Positions 27,787-32,205 of a stretch of DNA of 32,205 bases are shown piece after piece (position 1 is the stretch's first letter; each line of letters starts with the position of its first letter). Origin of the DNA: Acidimicrobiales bacterium (GTDB taxonomy: Bacteria; Actinomycetota; Acidimicrobiia; Acidimicrobiales; DASWMK01); contig DASWMK010000238.1 of assembly GCA_036399815.1 (NCBI GenBank), positions 1-32,205 of the forward strand. The letters are read 5' to 3'. The position numbers and the translations under genes were made by a program. Under the pieces are notes generated by a model. That model was given only the letters and a program-made list of their open reading frames with translations. It did not search any database and had not been told where the DNA came from.

Positions 27787-28323
27787 GTGCCGAAGGGCGG
27801 CGAGCGGTTCCGGGTGGCCGTGTCCGGCCACCGCCGGCTGCCGGCGGACGGGCGCGTCCCGGCCGGCGTCGACGCCGCCCTCGACGCCGTCGCCGCCGCC
27901 GCGGGCGCGGCAGCGGCCGTCGTGTCGAGCCTCGCCGAGGGCGCCGACCGTCTGGTCGCCGAGCGGGGCCTCGCCCGCCCGGGCTGGTCGCTCGAGGTCG
28001 TCCTGCCCCTCGACGCCGCCGACTACGAGCGGGACTTCGAGGCCGGCGGGTCGGTGGCCGCCTTCCGCTCGCTGCTGGCGCGGGCCGACGCCGTCGACCG
28101 CGTCCCGCCCCAGCCGACGAGGGAGGACGCCTACTGGGCGGCCGGCCTCGAGGTGCTCGGCCGCTCGGACGTGCTCGTCGCCGTGTGGGACGGCCGGCCA
28201 CCGCGGGGGCGGGGCGGGACGGGCGAGGTGGTGGCGCGCGCCAGGGCCGTCGGCCGACCCCTCGCCTGGGTGCGCGTCCCCGACGGCGACGTCGTGCGGG
28301 AGGGGTGGCCGTGGGCGGGCTGA
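27787..28323 (+). CDS. SLOG-superfamily nucleotide-sensor-like protein
   Basis: The protein has 178 residues from a leaderless GTG. It is a single Rossmann-like SLOG domain: RVAVSGHRRLPADGRV at the start, VVSSLAEGADRLVAERGL around residues 42-59, LEVVLPLDAADYERDFEAGG, and the terminal block EVLGRSDVLVAVWDGRPPRG followed by GGTGEVVARARAVGRPLAWV. Relatives bind nucleotides or nucleotide-derived signals and act as sensors or processing enzymes (LOG, DprA, TRPM-type LSDAT). The gene overlaps the TrkA/RyR membrane gene by 13 bases, so the sensor and membrane component are made together. The likely meaning is ligand sensing coupled to a membrane response; the ligand is unknown. Confidence 0.82.
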   Translation: MPKGGERFRVAVSGHRRLPADGRVPAGVDAALDAVAAAAGAAAAVVSSLAEGADRLVAERGLARPGWSLEVVLPLDAADYERDFEAGGSVAAFRSLLARADAVDRVPPQPTREDAYWAAGLEVLGRSDVLVAVWDGRPPRGRGGTGEVVARARAVGRPLAWVRVPDGDVVREGWPWAG

Positions 28324-30026
28324 GGCGGCTGTGGCAGCCGCGGTCGCGGTGGATGCTGTTGAGCGGGCTGTGGCTGGCCGTCGCCGCCCTCGGCCTGTGG
28401 GGGATGGCCGGGAAGTCGCCGCCCGGCGTCGCCTACTCGACCTGGGACCGGGTCTACGCCGTGCCCGACCTGTTCGCCCTGTCCTTCGCCAACGACTACG
28501 CCGCCGTCGACTGGCGCATCCAGGCCGCCCGCTTCCTCGGCCCGATGGTGACGGGGGCGACGTTCATCCAGGCCTCCGCCCTGCTGTTCCGCGAGCAGGT
28601 CGACCGGCTCCGGCCCCGGCTCTGGCGCGACCACGTCGTGGTCTGCGGCCTCGGGGAGAAGGGGCTGCGCGTCGCCACCTCCTTCCGGGACGCCGGCCGG
28701 CGGGTGGTGGCCGTCGAGGTCGACTCGGCCTCGCCGGGCGTGCCGACGGCGAGGGCCCACGGCGTGGCCGTGCTGGTCGGCGACGCCACCGACCCGGCCG
28801 TGCTCCGCCACGCCGGGGTGGGTCGGGCCGGCGAGGCGGTGGCCGCCGCCGACGACGGCGCCAACGCGGGGATCGCCGCCGTCGTGCGGGAGGTCGACCG
28901 GCCGGCCGGGGCCCGGCCGCTGCACTGCGCCGTCCACCTCCTCGACCCGCAGCTGTGCCACCTCCTCCGCTCGGAGGTGCTGGAGGACGAGGCCGAGGGC
29001 GTGCGGCTCGAGTTCTTCAACGTGCACCAGCAGGCGGCCAGGGCCTGGCTGGCGACCGAGCCGGTGCTCGACGAGGTCGGCCGGCCGCCGCACCTCGTGG
29101 TCGTCGGCGTCGGCCAGCTGGGCCAGAGCCTCGTCGTCGCCGCGGGGCAGCGTTGGGCCGAGCGGGACGGGCGGCACCGGCTGGCGGTGACCCTGGTCGA
29201 CCGGGAGGCCGGCGGCCGCCTCCAGGCGCTCCGCCTCCGCCACCCGAGCCTCGAGCGGTGGTGCGACCTGGCCCCGATCGACCTCGACCTCGACCGGCCC
29301 GTCCCCGACGCCGTCGACGCCTTCACCGACCTGCTCTGTTCCGGGCGGGTGACGGCCGTGTTCGTCGCCCTCGACAGCGACGCGGCCGCCCTGTCGGCGG
29401 CGCTCACCGTCCGCCAGGTGCTCGGCGCCCGGCCGGCGCGGGTGCTCGTCCGCACCCGCTCGGAGGCCGGGCTCGGCGTGCTGCTCGGGGTCGGCCGGTC
29501 GGCGGTCCCGGTCGTCGCCTTCAGCCCGCTCGACCGGACGTGCACGGCCGAGGTGGTCGCCGGCGGCACCCACGAGCAGGTGGCGCGGGCGCTGCACGAG
29601 GACTACCTGGCGAGGACGAGGCGGGACGGCGGCGGCGGGGCGGCGGCCGTGCCCTGGGACGAGCTGCCCGAGGCCCTGCGGGAGTCCAACCGGCGGGCGG
29701 CCGCGGCCCTGGCCGCTGGGCTGCACGAGGTCGACCTCGACCTGATCCCGCTGTACCGGTGGGACGACGGCGGGCGGCCGCTCACCGACCACGAGGTGGA
29801 GGTGCTGGCCCGGCGGGAGCACGACCGCTGGGCCGAGGAGCGGCGCCGGGCCGGCTGGCGCCACGGCGAGCGCCGGGACGACCAGGCGATGACCAACCCG
29901 CTGCTCGTCCCCTGGGACGACATGGCCGAGGCCGACCGCGAGCGCGACCGTCAGGCCGTCCGCGAGCTCCCGGCCATGCTGGCGAGGGCCGGCCTCGACA
30001 TCGTCCGCACCACGCCCGGCACCTGA
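28311..30026 (+). CDS. Membrane TrkA-N/RCK-like protein with C-terminal RyR domain
   Basis: The protein has 571 residues. GTG 28311 is about 7 bases after GGGAGG (GTG 28305 is possible). Two hydrophobic segments (MLLSGLWLAVAALGLWGMAG, about 12-31, and FLGPMVTGATFIQASALLF, about 70-88) flank an extracytoplasmic loop without a K+ filter motif. The first nucleotide-binding Rossmann follows (VVVCGLGEKGLRVATSF, ending VVAVEVD), then a second (LVVVGVGQLGQSLVVAAG). The C-terminal 85 residues are a RyR domain: TDHEVEVLARREHDRWAEER, GWRHGERRDDQAMTNPLLVPWD and ERDRQAVRELPAML. RyR repeats are best known from ryanodine receptors and in bacteria occur in predicted nucleotide-signalling systems. A gated channel or transport regulator controlled by a ligand is the best guess. 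Confidence 0.88.
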   Translation: MGGLRRLWQPRSRWMLLSGLWLAVAALGLWGMAGKSPPGVAYSTWDRVYAVPDLFALSFANDYAAVDWRIQAARFLGPMVTGATFIQASALLFREQVDRLRPRLWRDHVVVCGLGEKGLRVATSFRDAGRRVVAVEVDSASPGVPTARAHGVAVLVGDATDPAVLRHAGVGRAGEAVAAADDGANAGIAAVVREVDRPAGARPLHCAVHLLDPQLCHLLRSEVLEDEAEGVRLEFFNVHQQAARAWLATEPVLDEVGRPPHLVVVGVGQLGQSLVVAAGQRWAERDGRHRLAVTLVDREAGGRLQALRLRHPSLERWCDLAPIDLDLDRPVPDAVDAFTDLLCSGRVTAVFVALDSDAAALSAALTVRQVLGARPARVLVRTRSEAGLGVLLGVGRSAVPVVAFSPLDRTCTAEVVAGGTHEQVARALHEDYLARTRRDGGGGAAAVPWDELPEALRESNRRAAAALAAGLHEVDLDLIPLYRWDDGGRPLTDHEVEVLARREHDRWAEERRRAGWRHGERRDDQAMTNPLLVPWDDMAEADRERDRQAVRELPAMLARAGLDIVRTTPGT

Positions 30027-30385
30027 CGCCGGGGAGCGCCGGCCAGGCCGCCAGGCGCCGAAGGGCCGGCGGGAGGCCCGAGCGGCGCCGGGACGGCGCG
30101 GCATCGCGGCACGACCCGGCGACGGTCAGCGCGGGCGGGCGGGCGCCGGCGAGACGGCGGGCGATCGCGGCAGGACCCGGACGGCGGGCGGGAACGGTGG
30201 GTCGGGACGGCGGGCGGGGGCGGCGGGCGATCGCGGTGGGACGGGGACGGCGGGCGCGGCCGGCGGGGGCGGCGGGCGATCGCGGTGGGACCGGGACGGC
30301 GGGCGCGGCCGGCGGGGGCTGCGGCGTTGCGGCAGGACGGGGCCACCGGACGCGCGAGCGGCAAGCGGCGGCTCGGCGGCGCCCC
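30027..30385. other. Intergenic region with stem-loop and GC-rich tandem repeats
   Basis: The 359 bases between the RyR gene and the convergent TPR gene hold no credible gene. CGCCGGCC (30037-30044) and GGCCGGCG (30064-30071) form a possible terminator stem. From about 30098 on, the sequence consists of degenerate copies of a GCGATCGCGG-containing unit, the best of which are listed as a repeat. Frames through it give only Pro/Arg-rich sequence. Confidence 0.6.
30216..30319. repeat. Tandem repeat, 49-base period
   Basis: Bases 30216-30270 and 30265-30319 are identical over 55 positions except one (G at 30243, C at 30292), giving 2.1 copies with a 49-base period. Each contains GGCGGGCGATCGCGG and ends CGGCCGGCGGGGGC. 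A more diverged copy starts at 30153 and a remnant at about 30098. Confidence 0.8.
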
Positions 30386-32205
30386 TCAGCGCAGGCGGGC
30401 GCGGGCGGCGGCGGCGAGCTGGCGGATCTGGGCGGCCATCGGGGCGGCGCCGTACTGCTCGGCCATCGCCGCGGCCTGGTCGAGCAGGGCGATGCCCTCC
30501 CGCTCCCGGCCGGGGACGCCGCCGAGGACCTCGCCCCGGTTGGCCATGGCGATCACCACGCCGCCGGCGTTGCCGGCCTGACGGGCGAGGCGCTCCTGCT
30601 CCTCGAGCAGGGCGACGGCCGTCGCCGCGTCGCCCCTCGCCTGGGCGACGAGGGCCCGGTTGCCGACCGCCGACTGGAGCCCGTCGAGCAGGTTCCAGCG
30701 CCGGCACAGGTCCTCGGCGGCGGCCAGCACGACGTCGGCCTCGTCGAGGCGGCCGAGGCCGTAGAGGGCGAGGCCCCGGTTGCCCATCGCCATCTGCTGG
30801 CCGGCGACGTTCCCGGCGGCCGCGAACGCGGCCTCGGCCTCGGCCAGCAGGGGCAGGGCGTCGGCCGGGCGCCCGGCGCCGGACAGGAGCGTCGCCCGGT
30901 TGGTCAGCGCCGTCGCCGCCGTCGCCGGGTCGCCGAGGCCGGTCGCCGCGGCCTCGACCGCGGCCCAGGCGTCGACGAGGCCGGCCCCGTCGCCCACCGA
31001 CGTCAGCACCTGCACGAGCAGGCCGGCCGCCTTCTGGAGGTCGGGCCACATCCCGAGCGACCGGCAGATGGCGACCTGCTCGCGGAGCAGGCGGGCCGCC
31101 GTCGCCGCGTCGCCCCGCTGGACGGCGATGGCGGCCTGGTTGCCGAGGCTGGTCTGGAGGCCGTTGCCGTCGCCGGCCTGGCGGCACAGCCGCTCCTGCT
31201 CGCCGTAGCAGCGCAGCGCGCCGTCCAGGTCGCCCCGGTGCAGCCGCACGACGCCCTGGTTGCCGACGCAGGAGGCGAGCCCGGTGAGGTGGCCCGTCCG
31301 CCGGCACAGCGCCTCCTGCTCGTCGAGCAGCCGGGAGGCGCCGTCGAGGTCGCCCCGCTGGAGGGCCAGGGCGGCCCGGTTGCCGAGCGCGCCCTGCAGG
31401 CCGTTGGCGTCGCCCAGCTCCCGGCAGATGCGCTCCTGCTCGGCGAACAGGCCCGCCGCGGCGACGCCGTCGCCGGCCGCCATGCGGGCCAGCGCCTGGT
31501 TGCCGAGGCTGGCCGCCACCCCGGGCCGGTCGCCGGCCTGGCGGTACAGGTGCTCCTCGTCGACGTGGAGGGACAGCGCGCCGGCGACGTCGCCGCGCGC
31601 CCGCGCCACCGTCGCCCTGATGCCGAGGTTGGCGGCGATGGCCGACGGCTGGCCGAGCGCCCTGGCCAGCGGCTCGTGGCGGTCGAGGAGGGCGACGGTG
31701 GCGTCGAGGTCGCCCTGCTGCTGGCGGACCATGGCCTGGGCCAGCAGGCTGCGGGCCAGGCCGGCCCGCCGGCCCGTCCTCGTGCAGATCGCCTCCTCCT
31801 CGGCGAGGAGGCGGAGGCTGGCGTCGAGGTCGCCCAGCTGGAGGAGGGTGACGGCCTGGTTGCCGAGGGAGACGTGGAGCCCGGCGAGGTCGCCGAGGTC
31901 CCGGCACACCCGCTCGTGGTCGCGCTGGAGGGCGAGGGCGCCGGCCAGGTCGCCCCGGTCGGCGAGGACGGCGGCCCTGGCGGCGAGGGCCTGGCGCAAG
32001 AGGAGCGGGTCGCCGATGCGCCGGCATACCTCCTCCTGCTCGGTGAACCGGGCCAGGGCGCCGTCGCCGTCGCCCCGGTCCCGGAGGGTCGCGCCGAGGT
32101 TGCCGAGCGCGGCCTGGAGCCCCCTCGCGTCGCCCCGCTCCCGGCACCGCCGCTCCTCCTCGGCGAACAGGGCGAGGGCGCCGTCGAGGTCCCGCCGGGC
32201 CCGCC
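30386..32205 (-). CDS. Large TPR-repeat protein, 5' end beyond the window
   Basis: The frame stays open to the right edge, so at least 605 residues are visible and the N-terminus is missing. It is built from about 15 helical repeats of exactly 40 residues: a consensus like GDLDGALRLLxEQERLCRxL, followed by GDxxGLQxSLGNQAVxxxQR. This is the longer, 40-42-residue TPR class (kinesin-light-chain/LGN type). The recurring Glu-Gln-Glu and Cys-Arg in helix A and GNQA in helix B are unusually uniform. The array ends in AAARARLR. TPR arrays of this kind often follow an enzymatic or NTPase domain, which may lie outside the window. It converges on the SLOG/RyR pair and could be its partner, but it is not in the same operon. 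Confidence 0.9.
   Translation of the reverse strand, partial: RARRDLDGALALFAEEERRCRERGDARGLQAALGNLGATLRDRGDGDGALARFTEQEEVCRRIGDPLLLRQALAARAAVLADRGDLAGALALQRDHERVCRDLGDLAGLHVSLGNQAVTLLQLGDLDASLRLLAEEEAICTRTGRRAGLARSLLAQAMVRQQQGDLDATVALLDRHEPLARALGQPSAIAANLGIRATVARARGDVAGALSLHVDEEHLYRQAGDRPGVAASLGNQALARMAAGDGVAAAGLFAEQERICRELGDANGLQGALGNRAALALQRGDLDGASRLLDEQEALCRRTGHLTGLASCVGNQGVVRLHRGDLDGALRCYGEQERLCRQAGDGNGLQTSLGNQAAIAVQRGDAATAARLLREQVAICRSLGMWPDLQKAAGLLVQVLTSVGDGAGLVDAWAAVEAAATGLGDPATAATALTNRATLLSGAGRPADALPLLAEAEAAFAAAGNVAGQQMAMGNRGLALYGLGRLDEADVVLAAAEDLCRRWNLLDGLQSAVGNRALVAQARGDAATAVALLEEQERLARQAGNAGGVVIAMANRGEVLGGVPGREREGIALLDQAAAMAEQYGAAPMAAQIRQLAAAARARLR
30500..32205 (-). repeat. 120-base coding tandem repeat in the TPR gene
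   Basis: The 40-residue protein repeat is mirrored in DNA by a 120-base period. On the plus strand blocks such as GGTTGCCGA and CTCCTGCT recur every 120 bases (for example CTCCTGCT ends near 30600, 31200, 31320, 31440 and 32040). Copies near the middle (31080-31460) are the most alike, and they diverge towards the C-terminal end. Confidence 0.8.

Follow-up and report, generated by a model that had tools for sequence, protein, structure and literature searches.

The locus described here raises the question of whether a small SLOG-fold gene, overlapping the gene of a membrane protein with a C-terminal RyR domain and lying beside a large TPR gene, belongs to a signalling or defence system. It occupies positions 27787–32205 of the window, the whole 32,205-nucleotide stretch from an Acidimicrobiales bacterium that was analysed, which is the entire contig C238 of a 4.16-Mb genome in 287 contigs. 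The best reading of the results is that the three genes form a variant of nucleotide-signalled, membrane-effector immunity that is undescribed in the libraries and literature searched. A first-pass annotation of the sequence had put forward an undescribed module for signalling or defence, its membrane effector being gated by a ligand, and this proposal was supported, the tests of gene adjacency and of channel fold both being favourable. In its specific form, which we consider somewhat better than evenly supported, the reading is that of a three-gene, Thoeris-like signalling module, in which the product of a DUF4062 NADase gates an RyR-RCK channel and leads to abortive infection. The gene layout and its conservation, the domain folds, the residues of the RyR pocket and the association with TIR or DUF4062 genes were all computed. 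The genes of the locus are the following:

27787..28323, + strand: SLOG-fold open reading frame (ORF), 178 amino acids (aa), GTG start to TGA (ORF call).
28311..30026, + strand: channel-like ORF, 571 aa, GTG at 28311 to stop at 30026 (ORF call).
28311..28323, + strand: 13-base overlap of the SLOG stop with the channel start (ORF coordinates).
30386..32205, − strand: C-terminal TPR half of a DUF4062-NACHT-TPR gene, stop at 30386 (TPR Pfam families).

The 13-base overlap between the SLOG-like and membrane-protein genes, already reported in the first-pass annotation, is borne out by these coordinates. It suggests translational coupling of SLOG and channel; the stoichiometric co-expression that had been read from it exceeds what an overlap can show. 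The same arrangement, with SLOG overlapping the channel and a DUF4062-NACHT-TPR gene downstream on the opposite strand, was found in four relatives (G645, G627, G568 and G679; loci L120, L121, L122 and L124), which belong to one genus of the same order as the window, in a different family. Genes in the relatives were called by a simple scheme based on ORFs and codon position, and some contigs are short; in G627 and G645 a single contig holds the whole module. The overlap measures 13 bases in G627, about 4–10 in G645 and 1 in G568 and G679, so that the adjacency of the pair, whose absence elsewhere had been named as grounds for rejecting the proposal, is conserved in four other genomes. In the phylogenetic tree, which has several long branches, the window and these four relatives form one clade (support 98/99). 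Since the three-gene arrangement recurs in the relatives, it is not a product of chance.

The large TPR array that had been described as converging on the pair is real and lies on the opposite strand, but it is truncated and belongs to a DUF4062-NACHT-TPR gene. The window fragment shares 50% identity over 602 aa with the C-terminus of the G627 protein. The missing N-terminal half was located at the very start of another contig of this genome, C142 (bases 1 to about 2230, − strand), with 62% identity over 746 positions and a Pfam match to DUF4062 (E 8.8e-15). The last 20 bases of the window (32186–32205) are the first 20 of C142 and the reading frame is continuous. The assembly break thus falls within the repetitive TPR part, and the true gene encodes a DUF4062-NACHT-TPR protein of roughly 1,340 aa; an earlier indication that the TPR gene might be TIR-fused gave way to the identification of DUF4062. 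The counterpart genes in the relatives encode 1,270–1,407 aa, the length in G679 excepted. Three of them were scanned and carry DUF4062 and TPR in each case, with AAA/NACHT matches in two and a weak AAA match in the third. In G679, DUF4062 stands at the expected place, with one unrelated ORF between. Each of the four relatives has one DUF4062 gene per genome, always in the module, and the link between the pair and the TPR gene, which had been proposed by inference, is upheld by the conservation of this gene beside the pair. A second DUF4062 gene of the window genome lies outside the module (C182:5884-6129).

The DUF4062 domain of G627 was matched to the crystal structure of human TEP1 with E 2.6e-27. 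The SVTExE motif, which is expected to hold the catalytic glutamate, is kept in the window genome (SVTELE); the residue equivalent to TEP1 E1008 was assigned by inference from chain length. DUF4062 has been described as a TIR-like NADase that yields ADP-ribose (ADPR) and nicotinamide from nicotinamide adenine dinucleotide (NAD), is anti-phage in the Swarozyc system and is active in human TEP1 (PMC13174449). On these sequence grounds, the module gene carries a DUF4062 TIR-like domain, which is predicted to be an active NADase.

The 571-aa protein gave Pfam matches to TrkA_N (residues 109–194, E 1.5e-17) and RyR (residues 495–564, E 4.5e-15). In its AlphaFold model (pLDDT 82.6, thirteen homologues), two transmembrane (TM) helices stand on either side of a short helix of pore type, and after them come two Rossmann domains and a helical C-terminal RyR tail. 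The two membrane segments, two Rossmann domains and C-terminal RyR region of the first-pass annotation were all found, except that the RyR region consists of two tandem repeats. The features of the protein are as follows:

28338..28412, + strand: membrane helix 1, residues 10–34 (AlphaFold secondary structure; conserved block).
28440..28511, + strand: pore-type helix and loop, residues 44–67, family consensus LQLF-LESGS-GP (AlphaFold; alignment).
28512..28622, + strand: membrane helix 2 continuing into the RCK linker, residues 68–104 (AlphaFold).
28629..29060, + strand: RCK/TrkA_N domain 1, residues 107–250, with a GLGxxG motif (Pfam 1.5e-17; GsuK, KtrA and TrkA matches).
29088..29540, + strand: second Rossmann/RCK-like domain, residues 260–410 (AlphaFold, structural matches).
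29544..29765, + strand: RyR repeat 1, residues 412–485, with invariant H429, W449 and R461 (hhalign against repeat 2).
29787..30011, + strand: RyR repeat 2, residues 493–567, with H504, W507 and D546 (Pfam RyR; RyDEP alignment).

The gating-ring part of the model matched KtrA, TrkA, GsuK and CASTOR/DMI1 at Z 20–22, and MthK also matched. GsuK was aligned across the membrane and RCK parts (Z 21), at 11 Å overall because the angles between domains differ. The modelled protein has the architecture of an RCK-gated 2TM channel, in which a TM-pore helix-TM unit is followed by tandem RCK domains. A housekeeping TrkA uptake regulator, the outcome that had been named as contrary to the proposal, was ruled out, as TrkA is a soluble protein without membrane pore or RyR. 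The pore loops of the 25 aligned homologues have a conserved pattern and carry no TVGYG-type selectivity filter; K+ selectivity is therefore not to be assumed, and assignment as a K+ channel was rejected on the absence of a GYG-type motif from this alignment.

Membership of the tail in the RyR domain family (PF02026) was established with 56.1 bits against a curated cut-off of 27.4. The two repeats matched each other (hhalign probability 98.5, E 2e-15) and stand in tandem, an arrangement shared with R12 of animal ryanodine receptors. The tail also matched the mycobacteriophage enzyme RyDEP (hhalign probability 96) and a Pectobacterium phage RyR protein (probability 98). In the alignment with RyDEP, residues H75, W78 and D117 correspond to H504, W507 and D546 of window repeat 2. 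The H504 position is invariant in 25/25 homologues and the position three residues further is always aromatic; the equivalent of D117 is lost in several channel homologues. In phages, RyR domains have been shown to bind cyclic ADP-ribose (cADPR) or to cleave it (PMC13232231). RyR is the best candidate for the ligand sensor of the module. A stand-alone RyR protein of 94 aa (L034:5773-6057, Pfam E 4e-35) is encoded on the opposite strand just downstream of the channel gene of another locus and has relatives in 191 phage records, which it matched in a phage search where the window RyR tail found no match. The 709-aa gene of G073 was also considered as an RyR carrier, and this was not supported.

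For the analysis of gene neighbourhoods, channel homologues (n = 25) were collected by channel sequence alone. They belong to the phyla Chloroflexota, Acidobacteriota, Planctomycetota, Pseudomonadota, Fischerbacteria and Actinomycetota, and the distribution is patchy, the channel being present in 9/347 genomes of the order. The neighbourhoods were compared with an expectation derived from genome-wide counts of TIR_2 and DUF4062 genes, under a null of uniform gene positions. Of the 25 genomes, 14 have a TIR or DUF4062 gene no more than 10 kb from the channel, where 0.49 were expected (P about 5e-19). With genus g325 reduced to one genome, the count is 11/22 (P about 6e-14). The only TIR_2 gene of the genome overlaps the channel 3' end on the same strand in G427, abuts the channel on the same strand in G152 and neighbours it in G424. 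The channel of G618 carries an N-terminally fused TIR domain (L123:8349-10667), and a TIR gene and a distinct RyR protein come before it. At L031 TIR genes flank the channel on both sides. A patatin-like phospholipase gene (L044:7952-9076) stands between the channel and two TIR genes at L044; a patatin-like gene near an RyR gene was also seen at L102. The sole TIR_2 match of the window genome is on contig C141 and adjoins no module gene. A plasmid search with the channel gave two partial matches. Viral contigs were searched and contained no channel relative, so a phage-borne origin is unsupported.

The SLOG protein gave no Pfam match. Its AlphaFold model (pLDDT 91.7, ten homologues in the alignment) was compared structurally with VIA-align and matched YpsA (Z 17.5, 155 residues, 2.6 Å), DprA (Z 13.9), the defence protein ShosA and LOG (Z 11.2), followed by TRPM2 (Z 8.8, an ADP-ribose-bound chanzyme) and the SLOG domain of ThsA (Z 7.9). 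The alignment contains an invariant GH near the N-terminus, an AEGAD-type motif and WDG...GGT, of which GGT (residues 143–145) is invariant and followed two positions further by an acidic residue in 9/10 sequences. Because its best structural neighbours are YpsA, DprA, ShosA, the LOG phosphoribohydrolases, TRPM2 and ThsA, the 178-aa protein is placed in the SLOG superfamily by its modelled fold and its GGxGTxxE-type signature. No SLOG gene is adjacent to 20 of the 25 channel homologues; SLOG is thus an accessory of a single channel clade, that of the window and the four relatives, and the role of sensor previously given to it is better assigned to RyR as the candidate. No neighbouring SLOG was found at the first 16 channel loci searched; the apparent lack of adjacency came from the choice of genomes, since the pairs surfaced only with order-level sampling.

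The connection between SLOG and RyR extends beyond this window, given the TIR-associated SLOG homologues, the pair in G073 and an Anaerolineae SLOG-RyR fusion. Among SLOG (P0001) homologues in other actinobacteria, a TIR_2 gene lies within 10 kb in 4/7 genomes (expected 0.06). In G073 a SLOG homologue (50%, the best Actinomycetota one in the phylum search) and a channel are separated by 14 kb, a stretch that includes two TIR genes. The Anaerolineae protein (L029:13268-15757) fuses RelA/SpoT, TPR, LSDAT-type SLOG and RyR and is encoded close to channel and TIR genes. At two other loci (L060:2217-4158 and L061:5875-7765), a ThsB-like TIR, a caspase-like protease and a P0001-family SLOG follow in that order, a layout resembling TIR-caspase Thoeris plus an extra SLOG gene. 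A plasmid search with SLOG gave eight matches, mainly to DUF4231/DUF1273 and hypothetical proteins, and a phage search with it gave no match.

The following scheme is our inference as to what the signal is, how the channel is gated, which ions it passes, what SLOG does and how the module would act against phage. The DUF4062-NACHT-TPR protein would act as a STAND-type sensor, whose TPR array or a partner would recognise an invader or stress. The NACHT ATPase would then oligomerise, and the TIR-like DUF4062 domain would consume NAD to give an ADP-ribose-type nucleotide. This nucleotide may bind the tandem RyR at the channel C-terminus, in a pocket as in phage RyDEP, and binding would pull the tandem RCK gating ring and open the 2TM pore. 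Ion flow would depolarise the membrane and stop growth, as in abortive infection. For the co-translated SLOG, the most likely role is to bind or process nucleotides of this class and thereby tune the signal. The steps of NADase product and RyR ligand are drawn from two 2026 preprints on homologues (PMC13174449, PMC13232231).

Several observations weigh against this scheme. Published DUF4062 yields linear ADPR and works by NAD depletion, not by signalling (PMC13174449). The position of RyDEP H100 is Asn in the window and variable among family members; the ligand may accordingly be something other than cADPR. The pore loop, without a known selectivity filter, leaves ion conduction a prediction. 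No TIR or DUF4062 gene occurs in the sequence seen for 11/25 channel homologues, several on short contigs, and the window neighbours are housekeeping genes with no obvious defence island. Because the null is uniform and TIR genes cluster, part of the TIR/DUF4062 excess may reflect co-residence in defence islands; the fusion and same-strand overlap are free of this weakness.

The alternative that survives best, which we regard as unlikely, is that the DUF4062-NACHT-TPR protein alone kills by NAD depletion, like Swarozyc, and that channel and SLOG are a separate homeostasis or recovery pair responding to NAD(H) or ADPR. The published DUF4062 defence needs NAD depletion alone (PMC13174449), the closest channel fold, GsuK, was crystallised with NAD and ADP on its RCK ring according to structure titles, and the DUF4062 gene lies outside the SLOG-channel operon, on the other strand. 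However, two families share this placement on the opposite strand, and the channel is independently associated with TIR genes, including the fusion and the same-strand overlaps. It is distinctly improbable that the tandem RyR hydrolyses or sequesters an ADPR-type signal, the membrane protein being a brake on NADase signalling. RyDEP is a glycosidase, 6/8 tested RyDEP homologues bind 2'/3'cADPR (PMC13232231), and the catalytic dyad (H75, D117) has its equivalents in H504 and D546 of window repeat 2, but a sponge needs no membrane pore or double RCK ring and the D117 equivalent is missing in several members. Ordinary ion homeostasis by a NAD- or nucleotide-regulated cation channel of GsuK/CASTOR type, with no conflict role, is very unlikely, for although the fold matches GsuK, TrkA and KtrA and some homologues lie among housekeeping genes without a TIR or DUF4062 neighbour, the patchy distribution, the 14/25 association, the TIR fusion and the missing K+ filter stand against it.

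The signalling module was also compared with known systems. As in Thoeris, an NAD-consuming protein of the TIR superfamily neighbours an effector that has a nucleotide-binding domain; type I ThsA senses cADPR through SLOG, and type II effectors are membrane-associated. Here, in contrast, DUF4062-NACHT-TPR takes the place of ThsB, a 2TM-RCK channel with RyR as its candidate sensor would be the effector and SLOG is encoded separately, whereas channel homologues in other phyla pair with true TIR genes. Assignment to Thoeris was rejected, the locus having no canonical TIR (ThsB) gene or ThsA, and no ThsA/ThsB model of PADLOC matched SLOG, channel or TPR part. PADLOC 2.0.0 gave no match for SLOG or channel, a generic TPR model for the TPR part and weak domain-level matches for the relatives; no NCBIfam model matched the window proteins at its cut-off. 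With Swarozyc the locus shares the DUF4062 domain and the SVTExE motif, with ADP-ribose as published product, but KpSwz is one gene with a portal-sensing winged helix-turn-helix and kills by NAD depletion, unlike the NACHT-TPR fusion with SLOG and channel found here; the Swarozyc paper mentions no RyR, SLOG or channel (PMC13174449). Phage RyDEP and RyR sponges have an RyR (R12) domain with the ligand-contacting His, Trp and Asp and are small soluble Thoeris inhibitors (PMC13232231), whereas the window has a tandem repeat on a host membrane protein. The 2TM-pore and tandem RCK ring are those of GsuK, MthK and CASTOR-DMI1 (Z about 20–22 for the RCK part), which differ in lacking the C-terminal tandem RyR repeats and in the TVGYG filter, absent here. 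Prokaryotic LSDAT/SLOG-SLATT and TRPM channels likewise couple ADPR-sensing SLOG folds to membrane proteins, but the locus encodes SLOG as a small protein of its own, and its channel part is of the RCK type instead of TRP or SLATT. No TrkA/RCK-RyR channel is described in the literature searched, beyond which accounts of parts may exist.

More tentatively, a new prokaryotic immune class is conceivable, with odds somewhat short of even: NADases of the TIR superfamily (TIR or DUF4062-NACHT) would use an ADP-ribose-type nucleotide to signal to an RCK channel gated by RyR. If true, this class would parallel in bacteria the control of animal ryanodine receptors by cADPR, which is disputed. The direct action of cADPR on ryanodine receptors is a long-standing question, so far without a minimal system of this kind; if the module is read correctly, it would allow RyR domains, an ADP-ribose-type ligand and channel gating to be tested jointly in a simple protein from bacteria. 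It would also extend the membrane effectors of nucleotide-based immunity by a true channel scaffold (2TM and RCK ring) and give DUF4062-NACHT proteins, relatives of TEP1, NPHP3 and NWD, a signalling partner beyond NAD depletion.

Additionally, at two further loci (L106:4090-10214 and L109:4915-10960), DUF4062-type giant genes lie immediately upstream of genes whose products have a different N-terminus and end in an RyR region, which may be read as an RyR sensor on another effector.
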